Shown in pieces: positions 18,131-33,704 of a stretch of 33,704 nucleotides of DNA. This DNA is from Candidatus Omnitrophota bacterium. Lineage in GTDB: Bacteria; Omnitrophota; Gorgyraeia; Zapsychrales; Fredricksoniimonadaceae. The stretch is taken from positions 1 through 33,704 of the forward strand of contig CAIUQE010000032.1 in the NCBI GenBank assembly GCA_903901225.1. Direction: 5' to 3'. Each line of letters opens with the position of its first letter. The stretch's first letter is position 1. Below the pieces are notes generated by a model. The model saw only the letters and a program-made list of their open reading frames with translations, made no database searches and was not told where the DNA came from. Position numbers and translations under genes: made by a program.

Positions 18131-18985
18131 TCACTGCCGAACACATTCTAATTTGATAAAAACGCCCCACCGCTCCGCCCAGCCGTTCAAATGATCCGCG
18201 CCATCAACCTCGGTTAAGCTCTGCCGGGAATCATCGCCTTCTGCGTCCAGAAACGCTTCCGTAACGGCCCTGGTCACAACCGCGTCCCGCCGGCCGATAA
18301 AATGCCGCTGGGGAATACCCTTAACTGCCAGTGCGACGGCCATAGGATCAAGCGAACCTGTCAATGGACTTAAATGATGCAGGCGCGTGAACACCTCCGG
18401 CGCGAGATTGCCGGCCACAGTCCTTAAAGCGATAACATCATTCCTGCGCGCTGCCACCAACACGGCCACGGCCGCGCCACCCGAATATCCGACCAAAGAT
18501 ACTTTGCCGGCACCCGACGAGAGTTTAACCTGATCGATCGCCGCGTTCGTGGACTGGATCACTTCTTCGCTATATCGTTTCGATGTCCAATATGCCTGAT
18601 CAACCTGCGGGCTTGCGTCCGCAAGAAACTGCCCCGGGCGGGCCAGATATAAAACATGGGGAGACTGGTCCTCACTGGCCAGAAAGAACGCCAGCGGATG
18701 CCTGGGCGTCGGGTCATCTGAAGGCATCGTGCGCGAAGACCAGGCATAGCCATCACCTTCAATGTACACCACCAAAGTGTCCGATGCTCCTGCCGACTTA
18801 TGATAGGCGGTCAAAACAAAAGGCGGCGCGAAGAGGTATTGTTTCTTAAAACCCTCCCGCACCGCCGCCTGAAACATATCATCCCGACTGACCACCGGCA
18901 TCTCAACCGTGGCACAGCCAGTCAACGCGATCACCGCCATAACCCCGGCGATGAACTTTAATGTTTTAGAACTTGTACGCCACAT
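18131..18985 (-). CDS. Lipoprotein alpha/beta hydrolase
   Basis: 284 residues. The signal peptide ends in the lipobox LTGC with lipidated Cys24, so it is anchored in an envelope membrane. The hydrolase triad is readable: nucleophile Ser168 in GYSGG, Asp234 in GRRDAVV and His265 in GADHLNGW. YIEGDGYAW (about 74-82) probably forms the oxyanion region. The substrate is unknown; esterase or lipase-like activity is likely. Its start overlaps the autotransporter stop by 20 bases, so the two are cotranscribed and possibly coupled. Confidence 0.88.
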   Translation of the reverse strand: MWRTSSKTLKFIAGVMAVIALTGCATVEMPVVSRDDMFQAAVREGFKKQYLFAPPFVLTAYHKSAGASDTLVVYIEGDGYAWSSRTMPSDDPTPRHPLAFFLASEDQSPHVLYLARPGQFLADASPQVDQAYWTSKRYSEEVIQSTNAAIDQVKLSSGAGKVSLVGYSGGAAVAVLVAARRNDVIALRTVAGNLAPEVFTRLHHLSPLTGSLDPMAVALAVKGIPQRHFIGRRDAVVTRAVTEAFLDAEGDDSRQSLTEVDGADHLNGWAERWGVFIKLECVRQ

Positions 18986-21900
18986 TCAAGAATCCTGTAT
19001 GCGCATAATAATCCTGACGAACCTCAAGGTCATACCGCAAGGACAAGGTCACGTTCTTTTTAGTGGCCAGGGTCAGGGATGTACCCACATTGGCGCCGGA
19101 CCGGGCAGGCTTATATCCCTCAACAGCAAAGGCCGTACCGCCGCCCGCGAATGAAGCGACCATGCCCTGCCTGTCAGCGATAATATCATACAAATACTTC
19201 GCGTGGATCTCGGGTGTTATTTTCCCAAACGAGCACTCTTTGCCGGTCTCAAGCTTTCCGCCGAAACCAGAGCGCAGATTGTCATAATCCTGCGCGTTAA
19301 CATTAAGATCCAACGCGCCGGCATCCGCCTCGGAATACTTCGGCACATGCAAGCGGCTGTACGATAACGACGCCAGCGGCATCAAGACCGCCTTCTTGCC
19401 CAGCCTGATCCCGTAGCCCGTCTCCAGCGACGCGCCGAACAGATGCCCGCGGTAACGCGCGTTGGCGATGCGGTTATCCGAAGAACTGATATGGATCTCG
19501 CGCGAACCGCCATAGATGCTGTAGTTATAAGACAACGCGCCGTTCCAATACCACGGGCTTGTCACCGGCTTGTACCCGCCGTACAAAGACGCCTGCGTCG
19601 TATCGATATTCGTGCGGGACGCATTGTCCTTGCCGCGCACCCAGCTCTGCGAATTGCCCAACGCCAAACCGGCCTTAAAACTATCAGACAGGTCTTTTTC
19701 AATCCCAATTGCCCCGCCGCCGTTGGAGATGTTATACCCCTGGCTGGTGCCTCTGGGGCCCTGATGCGCGGATGTGCCAAACGCCTTGAACCATGTGGCA
19801 TACGGGTTAGGCTGGTCGCCGGCAGACATGCCGGTTTGCGGCGCGGCATGGCCCAGCGCCACCTCCGATACGCCGCCCAGATGATCCATCTGCACGCCAA
19901 CGAACTGCTCCAGCAAGGTCACCGGGACCTGCGGATTAAAACCACTGATGTCAGGGAGCATGGTGTTGAGCGCGGCTGCGGTTTGCGCGCTGGTAAGGCC
20001 GTCAAGGATGTTAAGCACCGTTGTCATATCGCTTGACGGATTTGTGATATTATCCAAAACCGTTGCGATCGCTTTGGAGTCCGGGGTCGTCGCGGCCGGC
20101 GCGTATCCCGTTGATTCACGGTTCGCGGTCACAACAAGATCATTGTTCAAAACTGACGCCAGAAAACTCACTTTAGAATTGCTCGAATTGACCGTCGGCG
20201 ATGTTCCGGCTCCCGCCAGCGTTATGCCTGCCGACCCGGTGTCGATGATCTTCAAAACCGCGTTGCTCGGGATAAAGCCTCCGACAGTCACATAAACGCT
20301 GCTGCCGGAATTCACCACCGCGACACCCGGCGTTGTTATCTTGCCGTGATCGGTGGAAGAATTCGCGGTCAGCTTTAGTGTTGAACCGGAATTCTGCGTG
20401 TAAACGCCACCGATCGTCGTATTGGTTGTCCCAAGGTCAACGGTGGCGCTGTTGGTCACCGGGCCGGAACCAAACGCATTGGCATTCCCGACCAGGACCG
20501 TCCCCGCGTTGATCATCGTCGTCCCGGCATAAACATTCGCCGCGGCAAGCTCAAGTATCCCGCTGCCGGCTTTAGTAAATCCGCCGGTCCCCAGGGCTCC
20601 CGTTTGAAACGCATTCGCAAAAGTCACATTATTCGCCTGGATATCCAGTGACGCCGTAACACCGTCATCTATCTTGATACGGCCGGATAGATCCTGAACA
20701 TTCCCCGTGGCCCATTGCAGGGTCGAATTAGCCTTAAATTCAACCACGCCGCTGCTTCCAAGAGAACCATTGGCAAAGCTTAACGAACCAGCGTTAAGGG
20801 CCGTCCCCCCCGAATAACTGTTGGTCCCGCTCAAGGACAACGCGCCTGAGCCTGCCTTGCTCAGCGCAAGCACTTTGCCGGAACCTCCGTCCTGCAGCGT
20901 CCCCCAGAAGGCCGACGACAAGTTATCCGCGCCCGCTGTTAACGTGGCTGTTCCCGTCGCGTTATTCGTGACAGTTCCCGCGGTTCCGATAAGTGAACCT
21001 ATTGTTTCATGATGAGCGTTCATATCCAGGATGCCGCCATTAAGCGTCACCTTGCCACCATCCCATAGTTGTTTGTCGTCGGTCCCGTTCAATTTGACCG
21101 TGCCGGCGTTAACGATCAGGTCCGCAAGCGCGTTGATCGTAGTTTTTTCAAGGGAGAGCGTCCCGGCGTCCACTGTGGCCGACAGAGCATAATTGTCCGC
21201 GTTGCCGCTCAGGATAAGGGTCCCGGCGCCGGTCTTGTCGATCAAATTATTAGGATACCCGGGGCCGCACGTAATGGCTCCCGAAAGCGTAAGGGATGTT
21301 GCCACATTGACCGTACTGGTCCCGGTCACGTCAATGGCACCGGAAATGCTGTTAGTGCCGGCACTCGACGAAAGGGCACTGCCATCAGCCAGCGTGACCG
21401 CCTCATTACCAACGTCAAAAGTCCCGTTCAAGTCCAGGGTCGCGCCATTCGCCACAGAAACACCGCCCGCCGTTGTTCCAAGCCCCGTCGCGGATGTGAT
21501 CGTCAGCTTGCCGGCATTGATACTCGTGGCTCCCGCGTAGCTGTTATTACCGGCAAGTGTCAGCGTACCTGTCCCGCTCTTGGTCAGGCCGCCATTGCTC
21601 ACAACTCCGTCAAATTCCGCATCACTGGCTGTCGTCAGGATACGGGTCGCGCCACCGAGGTTCGTAGCCGCGCTGAAGGTCAACTTGCCAGTATTAGTCG
21701 CATCGCCCAAAGCAACATTCCCGCCGAAAGTGACGGCATTCAAGATCGTCCGGGCCGTGGCGCTGTCCGAGGAGATCGTTCCTCCGTTGAGAGCCAAAGC
21801 GCCTGTACCGACAGCACTGCTTGTAACCGAACCAACAGCGCCAACACTATTCACGCCGATCTGCAGTGTCCCGGTGTTCAGCGTTGTCGTCCCGCTATAG

Positions 21901-24194
21901 GTATTCGGGCCGGAAAGTTTCAAAATGCCCGTACCGGTTTTAGTAAGAGACCCGTTACTGATAATACCCGAGATCGCCGTATTCCCGGTCCCGTCCACCG
22001 TCAAGAGGAGCGCCCCGTTATTCACATTCCCGGCAACCGTCAAGAGATTGCTGCTGTTGTTCAACCATGTCTGTGCTCCGCCCAGCAAAACATTGCTGTT
22101 GAGCGTCAGCATGCCGGCGCCGCTGTTCATCGTGATGCCGCTGGCACCGTTGATCGTCAGCGTATTCCCGCTGATACTGACAGCGTTATTGGCCGTGCCG
22201 CCATCCATGGTCAGGCTGTTGATCGTAAAGTCCTGACCCATATTCGTTGCGAAAGCTCCCGCTCCGGTAGCATAAAAATGAACATCCGTGATCACACCGG
22301 GGATCAAGCCGGTATCGACACCGCCGCCGGATGTCGTCGTCCAGTTGGTACTGCCGGCAACATTGGTGTTCCACAGTTCTGAACCCTGAGTATCTTTCCA
22401 ATACGCCGTGGCCGGGGCACCCACCGCGGCCGTATAAGTCAACTGAAGGTTATTGCCGGAAGTCGTGATACCAAAAACTCCCGGTGATACGGATCCACTA
22501 ATACTGTTATTGTTGGTGAAGGCCGAACTATCCAGTGTAAACTTGTTGGCCGCGAAACCCGTGATCCCCGCTGTTGCGCTGGCTATCGTCCAGGTATAGG
22601 GCAAATATTTATTAAAATTCGGAACAACTCCCACAGCATTGAGAAGCGTCAAACCCGTCATATCGATCGCAAATCGACTGCCCGACGTCGCGGTGATATC
22701 CAGGGCACCCGTAATAACCAGAGCATCCCAATTGGTTCCCTGGGCTCCCGTGGCATTATTGATCTCCCAGATATAGGCGCCACCCGGGGCAAAAGTCACT
22801 GTCCCAACACTTGAGAGAGTTCCCGGACTATTGCCTGGCGAAAGATTACCATTAACGGTTAACGCGCCAGTAGTTCCGGTGCCTTTGATAGTAGCGCCGG
22901 ATTGAACGGTGGTAAGAGAACTGGTGCGAATATCCCCATTAACAGCGAGGATACCCGAACTAACGGTCGTAGCCCCTGCATAAGTTTCAGTGTTAGAAAG
23001 CGTAAGGGCCCCCGTACCGGTTTTAGTCAAGGAACCTCCCGGGCTCGTCAGTCCGGTGGCCCAGGCCACATTCTGACCGTTTGTGTCCACATTGTATTGC
23101 TGGCTGGCCGCCGTACTGAAACGCCCGGAATAATCATTTTGGTTCGAGGCAGAGTATTGCAATATGCCACCATTGAGGACAATAGAACCAGGATTAGCCG
23201 CCACTGATTGTCCAAGCGGCCCGGAAGTGCCCGCAACCTCCGCCACACCAAGATTTAACGTGCCGGCATTGAGCATGGTAACCCCGGTGTAGGCGTTAGC
23301 TTGACCAAGCGTAAGTGTATTGGCGCCGAGTTTGGTCAGGCCAAGGGCGGGGCCAAAGTTCGCCGTCGTGAAGGCGACCCATTGCGTAAGGCCGCCGTTC
23401 GTGGTATCAAGGGCGAGAGCGCCGCTCGTCATGGTGGCATTCGTCAAAAGAGTATCCACTTCACCCGTGGTCCATCCGCCACCGCCCACCCGCACACCGA
23501 CAGTGCCTCCGCTAAAAACTACTTTTCCGGCGCTGCCATAACCCGGCAGGGCTGCCGCCTTGGTCGTCAGTAAAGTCCCGGCCGTGATTGTCGTCGTGCC
23601 AGTGTAGGTGTTCGTGCCGGAAAGCGTCAACGTCCCCGCGTCCGTCTTGGCCAGATCGCCAGCTCCACCCCCAAGAACACCGTTGAGCGCAGTGTCACCC
23701 GAGCCGGCCACTGTCAGCAAATTAGCGCCGTTGGCAATATTATTAACTATCGTCAGGATGTTCGAGGAATTGTTCGTCCAGGCCTGCGCGCCGGCAAGTG
23801 TGATGTTCAAAGGTTGGTCCGACCAGCCGATGGTCACCGCGCCCGCGCCGGCATCCACCGTGATACCGCCTGTGCCAATCGACAAGTTCCGCGTGGGCGA
23901 ACTGTTAGAGTCGATCAGTGTCGTCCCTGTGTTCTTGATGGTCATCCCCGCGACGGCATAATTTCCCCAAAGTTGAGGGCCCGTCCAACCGTTCACAGCG
24001 GATTGATTGAAAACCGCCATGTCTGCCACATCTGGAAAACCCGCGCCCGCGCCACCTGAGACTGGATTGAAGGACCAACCCGTTTCCCAGTGTATCGTGC
24101 TGGCGGTATTCCAGTAATAGGTTGCTGCAAATGCAGGCGTAACGGGTGAAAAGATAAGCGCTAAGATCGCAAGAATAGGAATAATTTTCTTCAC
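18966..24194 (-). CDS. Type V autotransporter with PATR beta-helix repeats
   Basis: About 1742 residues. The start is set at GTG 24194 because TAGGAG lies seven bases upstream; an ATG ten codons earlier lacks one. A signal peptide (VKKIIPILAILALIFSPVTPAFA) precedes a passenger of about 1400 residues. The passenger is built from repeats of the type LTKTGTGTLTLSGTNTYTG followed by TTTINAGTL, the passenger-associated transport repeat (PATR), predicting a long beta-helix exported to the surface. The last 280 residues form the outer-membrane barrel, ending in Phe (NVAYKF). There are no protease motifs. The DNA repeats make this the most repetitive part of the window. Function is likely adhesive or structural, which is inference. 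Confidence 0.93.
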   Translation of the reverse strand: MKKIIPILAILALIFSPVTPAFAATYYWNTASTIHWETGWSFNPVSGGAGAGFPDVADMAVFNQSAVNGWTGPQLWGNYAVAGMTIKNTGTTLIDSNSSPTRNLSIGTGGITVDAGAGAVTIGWSDQPLNITLAGAQAWTNNSSNILTIVNNIANGANLLTVAGSGDTALNGVLGGGAGDLAKTDAGTLTLSGTNTYTGTTTITAGTLLTTKAAALPGYGSAGKVVFSGGTVGVRVGGGGWTTGEVDTLLTNATMTSGALALDTTNGGLTQWVAFTTANFGPALGLTKLGANTLTLGQANAYTGVTMLNAGTLNLGVAEVAGTSGPLGQSVAANPGSIVLNGGILQYSASNQNDYSGRFSTAASQQYNVDTNGQNVAWATGLTSPGGSLTKTGTGALTLSNTETYAGATTVSSGILAVNGDIRTSSLTTVQSGATIKGTGTTGALTVNGNLSPGNSPGTLSSVGTVTFAPGGAYIWEINNATGAQGTNWDALVITGALDITATSGSRFAIDMTGLTLLNAVGVVPNFNKYLPYTWTIASATAGITGFAANKFTLDSSAFTNNNSISGSVSPGVFGITTSGNNLQLTYTAAVGAPATAYWKDTQGSELWNTNVAGSTNWTTTSGGGVDTGLIPGVITDVHFYATGAGAFATNMGQDFTINSLTMDGGTANNAVSISGNTLTINGASGITMNSGAGMLTLNSNVLLGGAQTWLNNSSNLLTVAGNVNNGALLLTVDGTGNTAISGIISNGSLTKTGTGILKLSGPNTYSGTTTLNTGTLQIGVNSVGAVGSVTSSAVGTGALALNGGTISSDSATARTILNAVTFGGNVALGDATNTGKLTFSAATNLGGATRILTTASDAEFDGVVSNGGLTKSGTGTLTLAGNNSYAGATSINAGKLTITSATGLGTTAGGVSVANGATLDLNGTFDVGNEAVTLADGSALSSSAGTNSISGAIDVTGTSTVNVATSLTLSGAITCGPGYPNNLIDKTGAGTLILSGNADNYALSATVDAGTLSLEKTTINALADLIVNAGTVKLNGTDDKQLWDGGKVTLNGGILDMNAHHETIGSLIGTAGTVTNNATGTATLTAGADNLSSAFWGTLQDGGSGKVLALSKAGSGALSLSGTNSYSGGTALNAGSLSFANGSLGSSGVVEFKANSTLQWATGNVQDLSGRIKIDDGVTASLDIQANNVTFANAFQTGALGTGGFTKAGSGILELAAANVYAGTTMINAGTVLVGNANAFGSGPVTNSATVDLGTTNTTIGGVYTQNSGSTLKLTANSSTDHGKITTPGVAVVNSGSSVYVTVGGFIPSNAVLKIIDTGSAGITLAGAGTSPTVNSSNSKVSFLASVLNNDLVVTANRESTGYAPAATTPDSKAIATVLDNITNPSSDMTTVLNILDGLTSAQTAAALNTMLPDISGFNPQVPVTLLEQFVGVQMDHLGGVSEVALGHAAPQTGMSAGDQPNPYATWFKAFGTSAHQGPRGTSQGYNISNGGGAIGIEKDLSDSFKAGLALGNSQSWVRGKDNASRTNIDTTQASLYGGYKPVTSPWYWNGALSYNYSIYGGSREIHISSSDNRIANARYRGHLFGASLETGYGIRLGKKAVLMPLASLSYSRLHVPKYSEADAGALDLNVNAQDYDNLRSGFGGKLETGKECSFGKITPEIHAKYLYDIIADRQGMVASFAGGGTAFAVEGYKPARSGANVGTSLTLATKKNVTLSLRYDLEVRQDYYAHTGFLNVAYKF

Positions 24195-24224
24195 GGGATT
24201 TCTCCTATTAGACAACAGGCTCAC

Positions 24225-24549: not shown

Positions 24550-25233
24550 TCAACCGCCCAAAGTGATGTCTTGTTCCTGATACCAGCTTAGTGCCTGGTA
24601 AAAGTGCTCCGGCTTGAAGTCCGGCCAATAATCATCAAGCACATAAAAATCAGCGTAGATCGACTGTACGGGCAAAAAGCCGCTCAATCTTCTGCACCCT
24701 CCCCACCGGATGATCAGATCAATCCTGGAAACCTCTGCGGACTTTATATTATTGATAATGTTCTTTTGAGCGGAATCAGCCGTTTTCAATGAATTCAAGT
24801 CCCATTCCCAGCCATAGTTGACCAGAAAATTGACTTTGATCCCCCCTTTCCCAAAAGTTCTTCGTTTGGTAAAAGGGATCAATTCTTTCGGGAATGACGG
24901 TGAATCGGTATTGCCCAAGACCAGCAAGGAAGCATCTTCTGCAGAAAGTATTTCTACGGCCTTGATGCAGGCATCCGTAAAAGCTCTTTTTTGTTCAGCG
25001 GGCCTTTTGGTGTTATCCGTGGTAAACCCGTAATAAGTGACTTCCTTGATACCTGTCTGCTGGCATAATCTTAAAAGAGTCAGGCCGGGATCAATTCCTT
25101 TTTCATACCCTTTTTCTTTGGGCATTCCATTTTGCTCGGACCATCTTCTATTGCCATCCGGAATGATCCCAATATGCTCTGGCAATCTTGTGATGACAGC
25201 TTCAGCATTGCGCTCCAGCATTTGCATTTGCAT
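24550..25233 (-). CDS. UppS-like cis-prenyltransferase (divergent)
   Basis: 227 residues. Isoprenyl diphosphate synthase signatures: HIGIIPDGNRRWS (usual HIAIIMDGNGRWA, with the Mg-binding Asp retained), YYGFTTDNTKRP (usual FSSENWxRP) and DLIIRWGGCRRLSGFLPVQSIYADFYV (usual RTGGExRLSNFLLWQxxYxE). Deviations are Met to Pro before DGN, Glu to Cys in the RTGGE box and Glu to Asp in YxE. It probably condenses isopentenyl diphosphate units to a cis-polyprenyl lipid carrier. Its location at the end of a stress operon suggests a second copy distinct from the housekeeping enzyme. AAGGGGG precedes the ATG. Confidence 0.88.
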   Translation of the reverse strand: MQMQMLERNAEAVITRLPEHIGIIPDGNRRWSEQNGMPKEKGYEKGIDPGLTLLRLCQQTGIKEVTYYGFTTDNTKRPAEQKRAFTDACIKAVEILSAEDASLLVLGNTDSPSFPKELIPFTKRRTFGKGGIKVNFLVNYGWEWDLNSLKTADSAQKNIINNIKSAEVSRIDLIIRWGGCRRLSGFLPVQSIYADFYVLDDYWPDFKPEHFYQALSWYQEQDITLGG

Positions 25234-26447: not shown

Positions 26448-28064
26448 CTATTTGGCCTCAAGATCTCCTTTGATATCACAAGCTTTACATTCGACCAAAG
26501 TCCCGTCTTTGAAGTTCTCGACTAACCGAATAACCCCGTTCTCATCATATGTTGTTGATATCCCATCGAGCACGTCGTCCTTATAAAACCCCTCCTGCTT
26601 CAAACGACCGTTTGCAAAATAGATCTTATACGGGCCGTCTTCCTTCCCTTGCTTATATATGCCCTCTGCCGCCAGATAGCCACTCTCGTCATAATGCTTA
26701 TAAGGCCCTTGAGGGGCATTATCCTTATACGTTTGCTCCAACATCAAAGCTCCGCTTGGATAATATTTCTTGTTAGGCCCATTGATACTAAAGTCGGTAA
26801 AGATTCCCTCTTCTTTAAGATGACCGTCCACAGCATATATCCTATACGGACCATCCTGCCGATCATCTTTGTAAACACCTTCCATCAAAACACCATCTCT
26901 GTAATACTCTTTAGAAGGGCCTTCTTTCTTACCATCCTTATAAGTAAATTCTTCGTGTAATTTTCCGTTCTCAAAATAATGTTTGTACACCCCTTGGATA
27001 ATTCCGTTGACATACACGCCTTCTTCTTTCAAGACGCCATTCTTATAATAATGCTTATGCGGCCCTTGACGCTCGCCATCCACATACATCCACTCGGCCA
27101 CCTCTCCCAGCTCATCGTAATATTTATACAGGCCATCCTGAACACCTTCTAAATAAACACCCTCGTCTTTTATCTTGCCGTCGAGATAGTAATTCTTGTA
27201 CGGCCCGTTGGTGATCAGCGCGGCCAGACGCTTGCGTGCTTTAGCGTGTCCTTGACGTGCCGCCTGGCAATACAGGTCGGCAGCTTTCTTCAGATCCATT
27301 TCAACGCCATGGCCCTCTTCATACAAACCTCCAAGGGCATATTGCGAGTCAGCGTCACCCTGTTCCACCGCCAGGCCGAACCATACGGCAGCTTCCTTAT
27401 AATCTTGCGGCACGCCGCGACCATTTTCATAAAGAATGCCCATGTTATGCTGAGCATCCGCCCGGCCATACGCCACAGCTTTGTAAGTCCATTCTGCCGC
27501 TTCTTTATCATTCTTCTCAACGCCTTGCCCGAGCATATAAAGCACGCCCATATTATATTGAGCGTCGATCTCGCCCTGCTCTGCGGCCTTTAAGCACCAG
27601 GCGGCAGCGGCAACATCATCCTTCGTAACACCGATCCCTTTGGTATAACAAACGCTCAGGCAAAGTTGAGCGGTGGCATAACCCTGCTGTGCCGACTCAA
27701 GAAACCACCGAACAGCCTGCGCGTCATCCCAGGGAACTCCATGCCCATTCGCGTAAAGGATGGCCAGATTATACTGAGCCATCGCATTGCCCTGGTCCGC
27801 CGCCTTCTGATACCACAGCGCGGCCTTTGCATAATCGCGCTCGACGCCTAAACCATCATTGCAAAGCGCGCCAAGATTGTTTTGAGCGGTAACATGCCCC
27901 TGAAGGGCGGCCTTTAGCCACCATTCTTCTGCCAACTGATAATTGCGCTCAACCTCGTCTCCCGCTTTATAACAGGCTCCCAAATCAAATTGGGCTTGAG
28001 CATCGCCGGCATTAGCATTCTTAACCGTCGAGATGATATCGAACAAAATGTCGTCATTGAACAT
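26448..28064 (-). CDS. Sel1-repeat / MORN-like (YwqK-type) repeat protein
   Basis: 538 residues, no signal peptide. Residues 10-290 hold about seven Sel1 repeats of 36 residues (pattern AQYNLGxLYxxGxGVxxDxxxAAxWxxKAAxQG), an alpha-solenoid for protein binding. Residues 290-525 hold about ten 23-residue repeats of the type GPYKxYYxNGxLKEEGxYKDGxxx, the MORN_2/YwqK family, predicting a beta-sheet ladder. Joining the two in one chain is uncommon. The protein ends with a Cys-x-x-Cys-like ECKACD. AAGG lies eight bases before the ATG. It is the last of six genes and follows the 108-residue gene by five bases. Confidence 0.9.
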   Translation of the reverse strand: MFNDDILFDIISTVKNANAGDAQAQFDLGACYKAGDEVERNYQLAEEWWLKAALQGHVTAQNNLGALCNDGLGVERDYAKAALWYQKAADQGNAMAQYNLAILYANGHGVPWDDAQAVRWFLESAQQGYATAQLCLSVCYTKGIGVTKDDVAAAAWCLKAAEQGEIDAQYNMGVLYMLGQGVEKNDKEAAEWTYKAVAYGRADAQHNMGILYENGRGVPQDYKEAAVWFGLAVEQGDADSQYALGGLYEEGHGVEMDLKKAADLYCQAARQGHAKARKRLAALITNGPYKNYYLDGKIKDEGVYLEGVQDGLYKYYDELGEVAEWMYVDGERQGPHKHYYKNGVLKEEGVYVNGIIQGVYKHYFENGKLHEEFTYKDGKKEGPSKEYYRDGVLMEGVYKDDRQDGPYRIYAVDGHLKEEGIFTDFSINGPNKKYYPSGALMLEQTYKDNAPQGPYKHYDESGYLAAEGIYKQGKEDGPYKIYFANGRLKQEGFYKDDVLDGISTTYDENGVIRLVENFKDGTLVECKACDIKGDLEAK

Positions 28065-28069
28065 AGTTG

Positions 28070-28396
28070 TTACCTTGTCGCGTTAGGAGCGGGTTCTGTA
28101 TTTCCTGCTTGCGAGCGGATATTGGCGATAACGGCCTGTAATTCCTTGACCAGATCCTCGAGCGCGCTGATCTTGCCCTGGGCCGCCTTCTCCAGGCTGG
28201 CGTACTCGCCTTTCAAATACTGCGCTTCAGCCTCAAGTTCTTTGATCCTCTTGTCCTTTTCATCACGAATGCCCGCAGGAGCTGAAACTTTTTCCTTAGT
28301 CTTCATATCCTCCGGGCCTCTGGTTTGAGCAAAACATATTTGCCCTGAGAAAATTACGACGACCAGCAGCATACTTAACATTCTTTTAGAGATCAT
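28070..28396 (-). CDS. Small secreted coiled-coil protein
   Basis: 108 residues. A signal peptide (MISKRMLSMLLVVVIFSGQICFA) is followed by a Lys/Glu-rich segment and a heptad-patterned helix (about 45-92, KDKRIKELEAEAQYLKGEY onward), so a periplasmic coiled coil. Its start overlaps the preceding gene by 11 bases, indicating translational coupling. I do not recognise a family. Confidence 0.8.
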   Translation of the reverse strand: MISKRMLSMLLVVVIFSGQICFAQTRGPEDMKTKEKVSAPAGIRDEKDKRIKELEAEAQYLKGEYASLEKAAQGKISALEDLVKELQAVIANIRSQAGNTEPAPNATR

Positions 28397-28682
28397 TCTT
28401 AGCTCCAGGTTTAACAGGTATTTTTAGGATTGTATCATCCTCCTTACCCGACACGTTGCTGTCAGCATGATCCGTATCTGAGGACTGTATGACCGGATCA
28501 AGAGCTTGTGCGCGCACCTCAAGCATGATCCTTTTGACTTCTTCCACAGTGATAAGGCTCCCGACGCCGCTGTCCGGGATCCCGACTGAATTGGAACCAA
28601 CGGCTTTATCGGCCACGGCTATTACAATGATGAGCACACACAGCCATAGTTGAAATGTTCTCATCGTGCCTGCGCAACACAT
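28386..28682 (-). CDS. Small secreted or membrane-anchored protein of unknown function
   Basis: 98 residues from the first ATG, whose A is shared with the stop codon of the upstream gene (TAATG). An alternative ATG six codons later has CAGG before it and would give a cleaner signal peptide (MRTFQLWLCVLIIVIAVADKAVG). The rest is polar and acidic, without motifs. The family is not recognised. Confidence 0.7.
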   Translation of the reverse strand: MCCAGTMRTFQLWLCVLIIVIAVADKAVGSNSVGIPDSGVGSLITVEEVKRIMLEVRAQALDPVIQSSDTDHADSNVSGKEDDTILKIPVKPGAKNDL

Positions 28683-29662
28683 TATTTGTCCATATCGACA
28701 GGCGAAACAAAAAAATACTGCCCGTTCTTAAAGAAATCCGCAGGGCTATAATCTATACCTATGGCAGACTTTATTTTATCACCTGAAGGTGAGATCTTAT
28801 CGGCCTTCGCCATATTGAGCAGCGCCCAATCCGCTTCCGAGCAAACCACATTGTCCTTACCCCATGCCCCGTAATTAGTCCCCAGGTATCCACCGGCCCC
28901 CAGAGACTTGCGGTTCTTCGCAGCCATCTCCACCGCCGCCCCGTAAAGAGCTTTGGCTTCTTTCTCATTCAAAGGTTGCGCCAGCCTCGCGACTTCTGCG
29001 CCGCGGGAACTATACCTTTTAAGAACCTCATCTTCAAAAATGATCCGCGGGCCTTCACCCGGGATGTTCTCCAAGAAATGCTTTACTCCCTTAACTTCCT
29101 TTAGATACAGCACAGTATGCGACGCACCGGATGCGCTGTCCCACGACAGAAGGTTGTCAGCCTTATTTATGATCTTACTGAACCCTTTCGCATTGATCAG
29201 CAAAACATCACCCGACTGGAGCTCATCGAACTTTTTAGGCGGCAACGGCGGGACCTCTGTCTTCAGGAAGGCATAGATCGCAGCCGCCCATTTATTGGGC
29301 GCCTCAATGCGCTGCTCAATAAGCCGCTTCTCGCCAGCCATCGAGGCGTAATCCATCTCAGGCGCCTCAACGTTCAATAAACTACTGTTAAAATCGTTAA
29401 CAGCGGCAATATAACTTTCCCTCTGCTTCTGTAAGGCCTCATACTCCTCATCCGTTTGATCTTCAGCGGCCTTCGCGGAAAAAGCGTCGGCCGCGTCCTT
29501 AAAGCTCTGGAACAGGTTATCCAGCAAAGCGGCTTTCTCGTCAAACGTGATCTTGTTTACGGAATTAAGCGTAACAGGAACATCATTCCGGGCGGGTATC
29601 TTGTCATCAGCATAAGTGACGACACTAAAGAACGTAAGGATCATGACCAGAAACATTTTCAT
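28682..29662 (-). CDS. Secreted YiiX/NlpC-P60-like permuted papain-fold enzyme
   Basis: 326 residues. Signal peptide 1-18, a helical region (40-135), then a domain beginning ELQSGDVLLINAKG (about 147-160) with SHTVLYL carrying His182 and, far downstream, NVVCSEADW with Cys274. His before Cys in this spacing, with GDVLL at the start and a YS-PADFF element near the end, is the permuted layout of the YiiX/YaeF (DUF830) group. These act as amidases or thioesterases on peptide or lipid substrates in the envelope; the exact substrate is unknown. AGGGG precedes the ATG. Confidence 0.82.
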   Translation of the reverse strand: MKMFLVMILTFFSVVTYADDKIPARNDVPVTLNSVNKITFDEKAALLDNLFQSFKDAADAFSAKAAEDQTDEEYEALQKQRESYIAAVNDFNSSLLNVEAPEMDYASMAGEKRLIEQRIEAPNKWAAAIYAFLKTEVPPLPPKKFDELQSGDVLLINAKGFSKIINKADNLLSWDSASGASHTVLYLKEVKGVKHFLENIPGEGPRIIFEDEVLKRYSSRGAEVARLAQPLNEKEAKALYGAAVEMAAKNRKSLGAGGYLGTNYGAWGKDNVVCSEADWALLNMAKADKISPSGDKIKSAIGIDYSPADFFKNGQYFFVSPVDMDK

Positions 29663-29703
29663 AAAATATTCCCCTGTTATTACTCGACAACTGTTGATGG
29701 CCT

Positions 29704-31158
29704 CTACTTGCCTGACAATTCTGACGCGAAACGCCGCAGCTCTTCCATCGTCTTGCCACCCCCGGTAATTTGCAAAACCCCATCGTTAAGCGGATCACGC
29801 ATAACAGCGACACACACAAGCCTGCCGTTTAAAATAAACCCCGCTTCATACCCTGAATTCTGCTCTGAGAATTCTTTTAACGCCTGCTTCGCATCGTCTT
29901 GGAAAGTTATCCTGACACCCGGGAAGGAAGGATCATAGAAAACATCAGCACTTTTTATCTTACCGGTAATATCAAACACACGTTCTGACGCCAGAATGAC
30001 CTGCCGCCCCTGGTAAGCATATTCCTTTCCCGCAGGAACTGCTTCGCTCTCACCCGCGATCGTCTTATCCTCTTCTTGACTGCGCAATACGCGTAACTGA
30101 TCAACCTCGCGCATCATCATCTCATGAATAATGGCTTGCGCCATAACCAGCACGTCGGCGGTATCACGGAGCATATCAAAAAGTTCCTGGGAATTCTTGC
30201 CATCCAAAAAAGATCTGAGATAGACCGATAAACCAAGAAAAGGTGCCGCCTTAAGCGGGCAAATGTGCGTCCGGTCACTCTCATCAAGCTTGGCCAACCA
30301 ATCATCATAGGCATCCGCGGGAATAGTGTACCGTCCAGGAACCATAGGTCTCCCGTTTTCAATGGCATGTTGCGCCCACTGACCGGGAACGGCTTCCTTA
30401 ATAAGCTCACGGGTCTTTGTCGCAGCTTCAATATCATTATTCCTGACATAAGCTTCTACGATCGAAAGATATGGCCAGCTTGTATCGTCAGTTGACACCA
30501 GAAGGCCCGTCGTTTGTCGCGCGCCGGCAATATCACCCATTCCCGCCTGAGCCTCAACAATATGGATCAGCGCGTTTCTTTTATATTCTCCCCTGAGAAA
30601 GTTATTCGCGATCTTTATGGCCAGCTCACTATGGCCTGATTCAGCCCATAATCTGGCCGCGTCGCATAAGTTCTTTCCCTTTTTATCCCTCGTCAAAATA
30701 TCACCCTGATAACTCAGCTCCTCGCCCTGCCCCGTACCCAGGCTGCTGAATATTTGACCAGCCGCCTCTTCAAGCAATTCAAGCAAGCGTGAAATGTTGG
30801 CTTGATCTTTCACATATAAATTCTCCATCAACGCAAGAACAGCATCCCGCGTTGTCAAAGGAGCATCGACGGCAGACGCAAGATACGCACCCAACCAGGC
30901 CATGGCCCGCAACTCATGTCCGGGGACCCTGGATTCTGCCAGACCTAAATTGTAATAAATATCCGGCTCTCCGGCGACAATAGCCCGCGCTTGCTCAAAA
31001 TACCGGATCGCCAGCGGGTAATCACCATTCCTTGCCGCGGCTATACCTTGATTCATGACTGGCTGAACCTCAGAAGGAACCCTCGCCGATACAGGCGTCG
31101 CAAGTATCAAAAATAAGAAACAAAGACCTGGTTTAAACATGGCACGTATTTTCTTCAT
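29704..31158 (-). CDS. Secreted TPR-containing protein
   Basis: 484 residues. Signal peptide 1-25 (LCFLFLILATPVSA). TPR-like repeats start at 28-60 (GIAAARNGDYPLAIRYFEQARAI, then PDIYYNLGLAESRV) and more helical pairs occur at about 165-270 (HSELAIKIANNFLRGEYKRNALIHIVEAQAGMGD). The C-terminal 110 residues look like a separate alpha/beta domain. The start codon overlaps the stop of the upstream gene as ATGA (31158-31155). It probably acts as a periplasmic scaffold with its operon partners. No specific family is recognised. Confidence 0.85.
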   Translation of the reverse strand: MKKIRAMFKPGLCFLFLILATPVSARVPSEVQPVMNQGIAAARNGDYPLAIRYFEQARAIVAGEPDIYYNLGLAESRVPGHELRAMAWLGAYLASAVDAPLTTRDAVLALMENLYVKDQANISRLLELLEEAAGQIFSSLGTGQGEELSYQGDILTRDKKGKNLCDAARLWAESGHSELAIKIANNFLRGEYKRNALIHIVEAQAGMGDIAGARQTTGLLVSTDDTSWPYLSIVEAYVRNNDIEAATKTRELIKEAVPGQWAQHAIENGRPMVPGRYTIPADAYDDWLAKLDESDRTHICPLKAAPFLGLSVYLRSFLDGKNSQELFDMLRDTADVLVMAQAIIHEMMMREVDQLRVLRSQEEDKTIAGESEAVPAGKEYAYQGRQVILASERVFDITGKIKSADVFYDPSFPGVRITFQDDAKQALKEFSEQNSGYEAGFILNGRLVCVAVMRDPLNDGVLQITGGGKTMEELRRFASELSGK

Positions 31159-32252
31159 TGGATTTTCTTTGTCTTTGCGGATATTTCAGTGCTGATGGTG
31201 CGATGTAATTTCTGGTTTTCTTCTTTCTTCTTAACGATCTCAACATCCTTTTGCCCTTTTATTTCGATCTTTTGATCGATCTTTACGGTCAATGCCTTGG
31301 TCATTCCCGGGTCTTTGGCCGCGCTTCTTTCACGGATCAGTTTTTCGATCTCGGCATCAATCGTGGCACGCTCGCCGGTTAATTGTGTGAGCTGTGCCTC
31401 CGCTTCGATCATGCGAGGATCGGCATCAGAGCCAACAACATCAGGCGCAACAGCAACCGCCTCTGAAGCGATCGGGCTTCCGTCCTTATCAAACATTTGA
31501 CGTGCCTTCTCGCTCCTTGTTTCCAGAGCATTAGGGTCGCCGAATTCCAGTACCGTCACATCCGCCGTGCGCGTGTCCATACCGCCAGGTATAGGAGTCG
31601 CTAAATGCTCAACAATGGCCTTGCCTGATCCTGTTGAGGATATGTCCAAGGTATCGGCAAATGCACGGATACGCGCATTGATCTTTTTCGCGGCCGCAAG
31701 CGCTTCTTTTTCCCGCACACGCGCATTCGCTTCAGCGGCTTTACGCGCACGCGCTTCCCGCGCCGGACGTTCACGCTCTGCTTTTTCAGCAGCCTCAACA
31801 CTTTCCACATGACGGAGATTCTCATCTGTAAAAGCCTTGGGCTCCATCCTGATCGCATGGCGTAATTCAGCGGCTGTTTTAGCATCCGTCCAGGTGATCA
31901 CTGCTTTCGCTGACGAGATCCATCTGCGCAGAGTGGGGCTATCAGCAACTTTTTGCCGCTCCAGGCAAAGCCGTAAATATTCACGGAAATCTTTTCTAGC
32001 CCACACCGCTTGCACCTGTTCATCAAAAGCCTTCGCGCGCGCATTTAAATCAGCAGCCTGCTCCGGTGAAACCTCCCACTTTGTTTCTCTGCGCTGACGC
32101 GGCTCATTATTAACAGGAGACGGGCTGTCATTACCGCAATCCATGCAAACACCCGTCGGATTCTGCCAATCGTTCGCTTGAACAGGAACAGAAGAAAAAA
32201 ACAGCACGTTTGCAGCAACCAAAATCACACTACCTAATAGTTTTATTTTCAT
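31155..32252 (-). CDS. Secreted coiled-coil protein of unknown function
   Basis: 365 residues. Signal peptide 1-26 ending VQANDW, then a short GVCMDCGND motif. The middle (about 55-215) is Ala/Glu/Arg-rich helix with long charged stretches, and the C-terminus (about 280-365) is a further coiled coil rich in Lys and Glu. No enzymatic motif. First gene of the six-gene operon; GGGATaaacg precedes the ATG. A perfect -10 lies about 110 bases upstream. Confidence 0.8.
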   Translation of the reverse strand: MKIKLLGSVILVAANVLFFSSVPVQANDWQNPTGVCMDCGNDSPSPVNNEPRQRRETKWEVSPEQAADLNARAKAFDEQVQAVWARKDFREYLRLCLERQKVADSPTLRRWISSAKAVITWTDAKTAAELRHAIRMEPKAFTDENLRHVESVEAAEKAERERPAREARARKAAEANARVREKEALAAAKKINARIRAFADTLDISSTGSGKAIVEHLATPIPGGMDTRTADVTVLEFGDPNALETRSEKARQMFDKDGSPIASEAVAVAPDVVGSDADPRMIEAEAQLTQLTGERATIDAEIEKLIRERSAAKDPGMTKALTVKIDQKIEIKGQKDVEIVKKKEENQKLHRTISTEISAKTKKIQ

Positions 32253-32421: not shown

Positions 32422-32460
32422 AAAAAAAAGACAGAACCTCAATTAAGAAGTTCTGTCTTT
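32422..32460 (-). terminator. Strong intrinsic terminator after the PNPOx gene
   Basis: Perfect 11-bp arms AAAGACAGAAC and GTTCTGTCTTT, on the minus strand followed by a run of eight T (32429-32422). It separates the PNPOx gene from the secreted-protein operon. Confidence 0.9.
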
Positions 32461-32528
32461 AGCGCTAAATGGGGCGGCTGGGCCCTCCCGCGGGAGGCGA
32501 AGTTCGAACCTGTTTGCTTCACCAGGTT
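32422..32528 (-). ncRNA. Conserved 3'-UTR element, copy D
   Basis: On the minus strand: hairpin AACCTG/CAGGTT (32528-32507) that includes the PNPOx stop codon, then GTTCGAACTTCGCC, a palindromic CCTCCCGCGGGAGG (32497-32484), CCAGCCGCC and the terminator. The first hairpin, core and terminator parallel 26277-26400 although the stem sequences differ. Confidence 0.5.
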
Positions 32529-32890
32529 TGAACAGCAGAGTCGATAGTAACAGCTATATTGGCTCGCAACCAACTGTACGTTGCTTTCAAAAAGTCATAA
32601 TCAGGTCCGGACGTAATAAAGGTCGCTTTTCCCTTAATCAAGAACCCGGCACCTGCCCCATGCAAGCCCTTAACCTTGCTGCTTCCCATCGTTATCAGCA
32701 CATTGGGATTGTGGGCAATGTTAGCCTCGGTCTTGTGCATATAACCGGCAGGAATGAACAACCGCCCATCCTCTGACACTTTGATGTAACTGTTCCAGGT
32801 GTTGACCATATGCGGCCCTTCATTTCCCAATGTCGCAATAGCGGCAACTCCATCTTGTTTCATAATTTCCAGTAACTTTTCGGGTAACAT
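32519..32890 (-). CDS. Pyridoxamine 5'-phosphate oxidase-family (FMN split-barrel) protein
   Basis: 123 residues. Split-barrel features: ILEIMKQDGVAAIATLGNEGPHMVNTW at the start, RLFIPAGYMHKTEANIAHNPNVLITMGS (FMN phosphate contact) and GFLIKGKATFITSGPDYDFLKATY. The family covers flavin reductases, heme-binding and F420-type proteins; the substrate is unknown. A homologous fragment remains at 13285-13367. It follows the SDR gene by 30 bases and ends inside RNA element D. Confidence 0.87.
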   Translation of the reverse strand: MLPEKLLEIMKQDGVAAIATLGNEGPHMVNTWNSYIKVSEDGRLFIPAGYMHKTEANIAHNPNVLITMGSSKVKGLHGAGAGFLIKGKATFITSGPDYDFLKATYSWLRANIAVTIDSAVQTW

Positions 32891-32920: not shown

Positions 32921-33567
32921 CTATGGCTTCGGAGCGAGTTCGCCGTACCAATAGGCCGCCGTTACTCCACCATCCATAAGAAAATCACTGCCAGTGATAA
33001 ATGTGCCGTCGCCACCCATCAGAAGCGCACCCACAGCGCCAACCTCGTCGGGAGTACCAGCCCGTCCAGCCGGGCACACTTCAATCATGCGTCGATAGCC
33101 CGGACCACGTGGTCCGCTTAATTCATCCTTCGCAAGTGGCGTGATAATGATACCGGGACTGATAGCATTGACCCGAGCCCCACGCTTTCCCCAGCGCACT
33201 GCTTCTGCCATCACCCGCAGCGAATTGGCGCGTTTTGAAATCTGATAAGCACGAAGAGAATCGGTCACCTGATCAGTCTGGAGCATCGGTAGTTTAAGCA
33301 GTTCTTCAACAGGTGTCGTTGCAAGGAGCTTATTCTGCTCAGCCGTGAGCGGCGGCAGGCGATGCCCGGACTGTGACGAGATTACAACACCAGAGCCTCC
33401 CCGTGCGATGACATTGCCGAATTCCTCAAGTACAAGTGCTGTCCCGTAAAGGTCGACCTTCAAAATCGTCTCAGGTGATGCTTGAGTAGGGGAAACACCG
33501 GCAGCATGGATGACACCGGAAATTTCGCCAAGGGATATGGCCGTCTTAACCAGAGTCTGAACAGTGC
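32921..33567 (-). pseudogene. SDR-family oxidoreductase, 5' truncated
   Basis: The C-terminal two thirds of a short-chain dehydrogenase: GVIHAAGVSP (about the NAG position), the catalytic YxxxK as YQISKRANSLRV, the loop ARVNAISPGIIITPL and the end FITGSDFLMDGGVTAAYW. The N-terminal Rossmann strand with GxxxGIG is missing. Upstream codons in the same frame come from the 22-bp repeats at 33572-33690 (residues such as DRNDWSYLTGKGG), not from an SDR. I infer truncation by a mobile-element end, leaving a non-functional gene, although an open frame persists to 33682. Confidence 0.75.
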
Positions 33568-33704
33568 GTATTTCGGTCAAGTATGACCACCCTTTCCGGT
33601 CAGGCATGACCAGCAATTCCGGTAAGGTGTGACCACCTTTTCCGGTCAGGTATGACCAGTCATTCCGGTCAAGTGTGACCACCCACCCTGGGAAGTTCTC
33701 AATC
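33565..33704. mobile_element. End of an IS21-like element (partial)
   Basis: Five degenerate copies of a 22-23 bp unit (TTCCGGTCAGGTATGACCAS type) start near 33572, 33594, 33617, 33640 and 33663. Multiple short direct repeats of TGACC/GGTCA type close to a terminus beginning TG are characteristic of IS21-family ends. A TG at 33565 adjoins the truncated SDR gene. The rest of the element would lie beyond the window; no transposase is visible here. Confidence 0.55.

Follow-up and report, generated by a model that had tools for sequence, protein, structure and literature searches.

The question raised by this locus is what a compact run of six genes is for, and whether all six belong to one system. 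The window, by which we mean the whole stretch of DNA analysed, is the 33,704-nucleotide contig CAIUQE010000032.1 (C32) of the 2.38-Mb genome G000 of a Candidatus Omnitrophota bacterium. The six open reading frames (ORFs) all lie on the minus strand, running from 32252 down to 26448, and encode in transcription order proteins of 365, 484, 326, 98, 108 and 538 amino acids (aa). An earlier note, made from the letters alone, took them for a compact operon whose one enzyme and scaffold-like proteins form an envelope complex acting on peptidoglycan or lipid. The operon is real, with all six ORFs present at the lengths stated, and one enzyme with a repeat-protein partner stands, but the conserved unit is not the six genes. 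What is supported is a pair recurring in distant bacteria, the 326-aa enzyme and an exported-type protein with tetratricopeptide repeats (TPR), here the 484-aa protein, the rest being lineage-specific accessories. As a tentative proposal, which we hold with a little less than even confidence, the two would form a two-component envelope unit, in which an acyl-thioester enzyme cleaves or transfers fatty-acyl groups while docked on, or aimed by, its partner.

The enzyme and its presumed active-site codons are placed as follows, with residues numbered from the start Met and counts taken from alignment A3 of 17 enzyme domains.

28682 to 29662, minus strand: 326-aa exported (predicted) permuted NlpC/P60 (YaeF/YiiX-like) enzyme, from its ORF, the alignment and a fold search
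29117 to 29119, minus strand: codon of His182, predicted catalytic, His in 17/17
29069 to 29071, minus strand: codon of Glu198, predicted third catalytic residue, Glu or Asp in 17/17
28871 to 28873, minus strand: codon of Tyr264, the NlpC/P60 signature tyrosine (role per PMC3142127), Tyr in 15/17 and Phe in two
28841 to 28843, minus strand: codon of Cys274, predicted nucleophile, Cys in 16/17 and Ala in locus L045

No Pfam or NCBIfam model matches the 326-aa protein; PF05708 (Peptidase_C92) in particular gives no match at E<=10 across 8 members of the enzyme family, nor anywhere in the genome of the window. What the domain does have is a His in its N-terminal half, a Cys in its C-terminal half, an acidic third residue and a Tyr, and this His-acid-Tyr-Cys order is that described for permuted NlpC/P60 enzymes (PMC3142127). 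In an hhalign comparison with Escherichia coli YiiX, the GD, SH and CSE motifs line up (probability 79, E = 1.6e-5), while sequence searches of the Protein Data Bank with a profile and with the single domain gave nothing meaningful. A full-length structure model made with 8 homologues was poor, with a predicted local distance difference test (pLDDT) score of 42.7, and was replaced by a domain-only prediction with 17, which has a mean pLDDT of 59 and is uncertain around the Cys helix. The top five fold-search matches of that domain are solely to 3KW0 (1.9e-4, probability 1.00) and to YiiX, 2IF6 (1.5e-3, probability 0.99); the sixth has a probability of only 0.10, leaving these two as the sole confident matches. 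The 326-aa protein is thus a permuted NlpC/P60 enzyme of YaeF/YiiX-like type, with the fold recognized at family level, and the "YiiX-like" of the earlier note was right even though the Pfam and NCBIfam models are silent.

Since PF05708 does not match, the enzyme makes a separate subfamily within the YaeF/YiiX-like fold group. With the established members (MEROPS/Pfam C92; 2IF6; BcPPNE, 3KW0) it shares the residue order, the three motifs, the best fold matches and export. It differs from them in being larger, in a SPAD-type C-terminal motif, in long N-terminal coiled-coil regions and in nearly always clustering with repeat proteins. The conserved enzyme domain is C-terminal in the proteins of the family, and the N-termini ahead of it vary. 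One paralogue, L045:10146-12128, has VASD in place of VCSE, so that Cys becomes Ala, and is followed by the gene of a MORN protein; judging by this substitution it is probably catalytically dead, a non-catalytic version kept in use.

The partner is the other half of the answer, and in the window it consists of these parts.

29704 to 31158, minus strand: 484-aa exported (predicted) TPR partner protein, from its ORF, Pfam and a module profile
30820 to 31083, minus strand: its TPR module, residues 26-113, by the module profile
29728 to 30009, minus strand: its SecDF P1-head-like C-terminal domain, residues 384-477, by PF22599

In 13 of 16 related loci, an exported-type protein with a conserved TPR module of ~95 aa is encoded near the enzyme. 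Complete copies of the module score 99-150 bits, and the L003 copy, truncated by the end of its contig, 52 bits; enzyme and TPR gene are separated by further cluster genes in L043 and L018. The second domain of the partner is what varies, as assigned by Pfam for nine proteins and by reading the sequence for the others: Lcl_C with MORN (L037, L040, L041) or alone (L038), FGE-sulfatase (L014, L016, L043), PDZ with MORN (L017), PDZ with thioredoxin (L018), and ankyrin (L013, L015, L003), the ankyrin-TPR proteins standing beside the enzyme with a lipoprotein-like N-terminus. The partners in L039 and from a second L018 gene have an N-terminal part to which no domain was assigned.

With the 484-aa protein left out of the model, the module is still recognized in it at 30.5 bits (4.6e-9), and its gene lies 41 nt from the enzyme gene, which makes this an adjacent exported TPR-module protein. 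By tblastn, its residues 1-148 are 31% identical to L079 (3.7e-8). The TPR that the earlier note had read in it are weak but present in Pfam; the note had missed the C-terminal end resembling SecDF_P1_head (PF22599, 2.2e-6, 27.9 bits against a cut-off of 27; NCBIfam secD, 2.4e-6). These profiles place the 484-aa protein in the partner family as a divergent member, its variable domain being SecDF-P1-head-like.

The TPR module is wider in occurrence than the enzyme. Searching 28 genomes finds 22 strong copies (>118 bits), all in carriers of the enzyme and ~15 of them within enzyme loci, and none of that strength in 13 non-carriers, a contrast with some circularity to it, carriers having supplied the sequences for the model. 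The module is also seen next to exported proteins of other kinds, without the enzyme, in G398 and G497 and, in weaker form, in G022. Loci L078-L080 of G398, a Syntrophus metagenome-assembled genome (MAG), hold clusters of exported TPR-module proteins with many different small C-terminal domains, along with exported ankyrin and unassigned proteins and no YiiX-like enzyme. Beside further TPR-module genes are three exported proteins (L081:3448-5001, L018:13813-15315 and L083:7024-7788) with other C-terminal parts but with Cys-rich, coiled-coil and 'LKG..LGLK' style N-terminal regions like those of the enzymes; from the resemblance, a Cys-rich/coiled-coil adaptor region common to both is possible.

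Whether there is a functional unit at all is a fair question, as the six genes might be unrelated ones gathered in a variable region, with incidental TPR neighbors. The six-gene order was found in no other genome or locus searched, and the enzyme, 484-aa and 365-aa genes are in none of four same-genus genomes, so that the conservation in close relatives on which the earlier note had staked its proposal fails for the full set. In one of the four (G003, locus L091) the flanking PNPOx, UppS-like and autotransporter genes are present, reordered, without the operon. The enzyme and partner distances, too, are without significant correlation. Such a reading must nonetheless make an accident of the same exported TPR module near the enzyme in 13/16 related loci, which is far above chance, and we regard it as quite improbable. 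The neighborhood search that the note had called for thus gave nothing for the set of six and recovered the pair in distant bacteria.

Relatives of the enzyme, at 53-70% identity, are sporadic in MAGs labelled Omnitrophota, Desulfobacteraceae, Syntrophus, Lentisphaerae and 'Clostridiales'; they were gathered from whole genomes and genome contigs, and some of the labels may be wrong. The domain is rare, with 7/384 Omnitrophota genomes and 5/395 of the phylum of L018 (a Desulfobacteraceae MAG) having it, and was not found in the four same-genus genomes, two of them only 64-68% complete. In a 17-sequence tree, the window enzyme falls in a group (100/99 support) of other Omnitrophota sequences and one from a 'Clostridiales' MAG, further Omnitrophota copies being placed elsewhere. 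Scatter and tree together fit horizontal spread or repeated loss. Searches of viral contigs, plasmids and phages gave no relatives, so carriage by phage or plasmid is not evident, and no flanking repeats or insertion sequence ends marking an insertion were found at the operon.

As for chemistry, the earlier note had left peptidoglycan and lipid side by side, and a peptidoglycan amidase or endopeptidase with scaffold proteins is what membership in the NlpC/P60 superfamily would first suggest, canonical members cutting peptidoglycan and such hydrolases being regulated by exported TPR proteins (PMC6050968). Against this, the His-before-Cys order and the fold match place the enzyme in the permuted group, whose hydrophobic pocket is ill-suited to peptides, YiiX having been crystallized with a fatty acid (PMC3142127). 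Lipid acyl chemistry appears the better reading, because permuted members have this fatty-acid pocket and, once, phospholipase activity, demonstrated for Tox-Act1 (PMC12994826); a peptidoglycan enzyme is improbable. Of the note's two candidates, then, lipid is the one we would keep.

The proposal of an acyl-thioester enzyme with a TPR partner rests on that pocket, on Tox-Act1 and on two further precedents: LnsA, a permuted NlpC/P60 enzyme with a part in lipoprotein N-acylation together with a second protein (PMC7387801), and the pairs LbcA-CtpA and NlpI-Prc, in which an exported TPR lipoprotein recruits an envelope enzyme (PMC6050968). The 326-aa enzyme would be exported, and His182 and Glu198 would activate Cys274 to attack a fatty-acyl ester or amide of a phospholipid or lipoprotein; an acyl-thioester would form on Cys274, from which the acyl group would go to water or another acceptor. 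The exported 484-aa protein would dock the enzyme, and its exchangeable C-terminal domain, here SecDF-P1-head-like, may set where or on what the enzyme acts; the partners of some relatives have the look of lipoproteins. The Sel1/MORN protein and the three other exported proteins (365, 98 and 108 aa) would be lineage-specific accessories. The likeness to LbcA-CtpA and NlpI-Prc lies in an exported TPR protein that there recruits and activates the envelope enzyme, although those enzymes are carboxy-terminal processing proteases and not acyl enzymes. In the open-access literature no description of an enzyme and TPR unit of this kind was found, which is weak evidence of absence.

LnsA also nominates a narrower function, a lipoprotein N-acyltransferase replacing Lnt. 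LnsAB of Staphylococcus aureus shares the permuted NlpC/P60 fold and a second envelope gene product, but LnsB is a CPBP-family membrane protein and not a TPR protein, and Pfam finds no such domain in the operon. Moreover, two Lnt score over the cut-off in the genome of the window, most carriers have Lnt, and genomes poor in Lnt are found both with and without the enzyme. Lnt replacement was dropped on the presence of Lnt here and in most carriers, and we hold it to be very improbable, close to negligible.

The sporadic spread (7/384 and 5/395), the variable N-termini ahead of a conserved C-terminal enzyme, and the lipoprotein-like ankyrin-TPR proteins adjoining the enzyme in L013, L015 and L003 are also what might be expected of an antagonism cassette, with the enzyme a secreted membrane-damaging phospholipase toxin and the TPR, ankyrin and MORN proteins its immunity or activation partners. 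This is possible because ankyrin-type lipoproteins do partner a phospholipase toxin, as in Tle6 with its ankyrin lipoprotein Tli (PMC10294624, PMC11470151), and Tox-Act1 (PMC12994826) is a further precedent. Tle6-Tli shares with some of our loci a lipid enzyme and an exported ankyrin-type partner, although its lipase fold, with a Ser triad, is unrelated; Tox-Act1 and TseH share the permuted NlpC/P60 catalytic class but are delivered by the type VI secretion system (T6SS), whereas the enzyme here has a predicted Sec-type signal of its own and shows no trafficking domain. The T6SS sheath is absent from this genome and from 12/15 carriers (VipB is present in 3/15), and a T6SS effector in this genome was accordingly dropped as a candidate. 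FGE-sulfatase, Lcl_C, PDZ and thioredoxin domains would be atypical of immunity proteins, and the TPR module is the conserved part, occurring apart from the enzyme as well. We think the toxin reading unlikely.

Several observations weigh against the acyl-enzyme and TPR proposal. Fold-match template modeling scores of 0.42-0.46, with the mean pLDDT of 59, make for a weak structure model, and the fold class also includes toxins. Three loci are without a separate TPR partner: L042 has a TPR stretch within the N-terminus of the enzyme itself and an ankyrin protein nearby, the L045 enzyme is adjoined by a MORN protein, and the L044 enzyme is alone. The window partner is far more diverged than the others and is encoded upstream of the enzyme, elsewhere downstream, with only L039 similar. 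Finally, the enzyme and partner distances correlate at r 0.20 (Mantel p 0.17, n 13, not significant), a result compatible with partner swapping as well as with a lack of specific pairing.

A broader version of the proposal would make this a horizontally spread modular envelope system, with one acyl enzyme, other cargoes on similar Cys-rich/coiled-coil 'adaptor' N-termini, and TPR partners with a sensor or ligand domain swapped from lineage to lineage, which would make local modification of lipid or lipoprotein reprogrammable; this we find doubtful.

The remaining features of the operon and its upstream boundary are these.

31155 to 32252, minus strand: 365-aa exported (predicted) coiled-coil protein with an N-terminal CxxC after the signal peptide, from its ORF and N-terminus; no relatives found
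28386 to 28682, minus strand: 98-aa small exported (predicted) protein, from its ORF and N-terminus
28070 to 28396, minus strand: 108-aa small exported (predicted) coiled-coil protein, from its ORF and N-terminus
26448 to 28064, minus strand: 538-aa Sel1 and MORN_2 repeat protein without a signal peptide, from its ORF and Pfam
32427 to 32460, minus strand: intrinsic terminator of 14 pairs with a T tail, between the operon and the PNPOx gene upstream of it

The junctions, in transcription order, are a 4-nt overlap, a 41-nt gap, a 1-nt overlap, an 11-nt overlap and a 5-nt gap, as tight as had been claimed, although the claimed range of 4-41 bases misses the 1-nt overlap. The strong terminator at 32460-32427 parts the operon from the PNPOx-family gene. 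The first five proteins begin with a basic N-terminus and then a strongly hydrophobic stretch (maximum Kyte-Doolittle over 11 residues 2.6-3.6), from which Sec-type export is inferred by this heuristic, while the 538-aa protein reaches 1.1 and has no export-type sequence, a division of five and one that agrees with the earlier note. The Sel1 (2.9e-62, 7 stretches) and MORN_2 (5.3e-30, 7 stretches) repeats of the 538-aa protein are likewise confirmed by Pfam. PADLOC gave no useful anti-phage defence match, only a marginal PtuA N-terminal one on the Sel1 residues, and Rfam had no match. No relative of the 365-aa protein turned up in 55 related genomes; this protein was considered as a separated 'adaptor' of other enzymes, but profile A5 does not match it and the likeness is a loose one of CxxC and coil, so that identity is not claimed. 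For the 98- and 108-aa proteins there are no relatives in the fetched loci, the genomes having been searched for neither.

Around the operon, the PNPOx-family gene (32519-32890) also adjoins the enzyme unit in another genus, on the opposite side (G007, L014:3099-3500), and a third genus without the enzyme (G015) has it at 97% identity, which suggests transfer. A 1752-aa autotransporter with PATR repeats and a beta-domain (18966-24224) lies near the operon and has 92% DNA conservation in a same-genus genome with a rearranged locus. The 227-aa UppS-like cis-prenyltransferase (24550-25233), which may be a second copy, is near autotransporter and PNPOx in the sister genome too. At the contig edge, tandem 23-nt repeats (TTTCCGGTCAGGTATGACCA..) at 33570-33684 cover the 5' end of an SDR gene (32921-33682), the relative L090 having an intact and different SDR N-terminus; the contig appears to break here because of a mobile element or the repeats.

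The family thus lies outside all Pfam and NCBIfam models; its catalytic signature is clear and its partner is conserved, and it occurs in bacteria that are largely uncultured and poorly understood. The functions of bacterial YiiX-like enzymes are themselves poorly understood, and a partner gene that recurs offers a direct way into their biochemistry. Should the exchangeable domain indeed direct the enzyme, envelope lipid or lipoprotein modification would here take a modular form.

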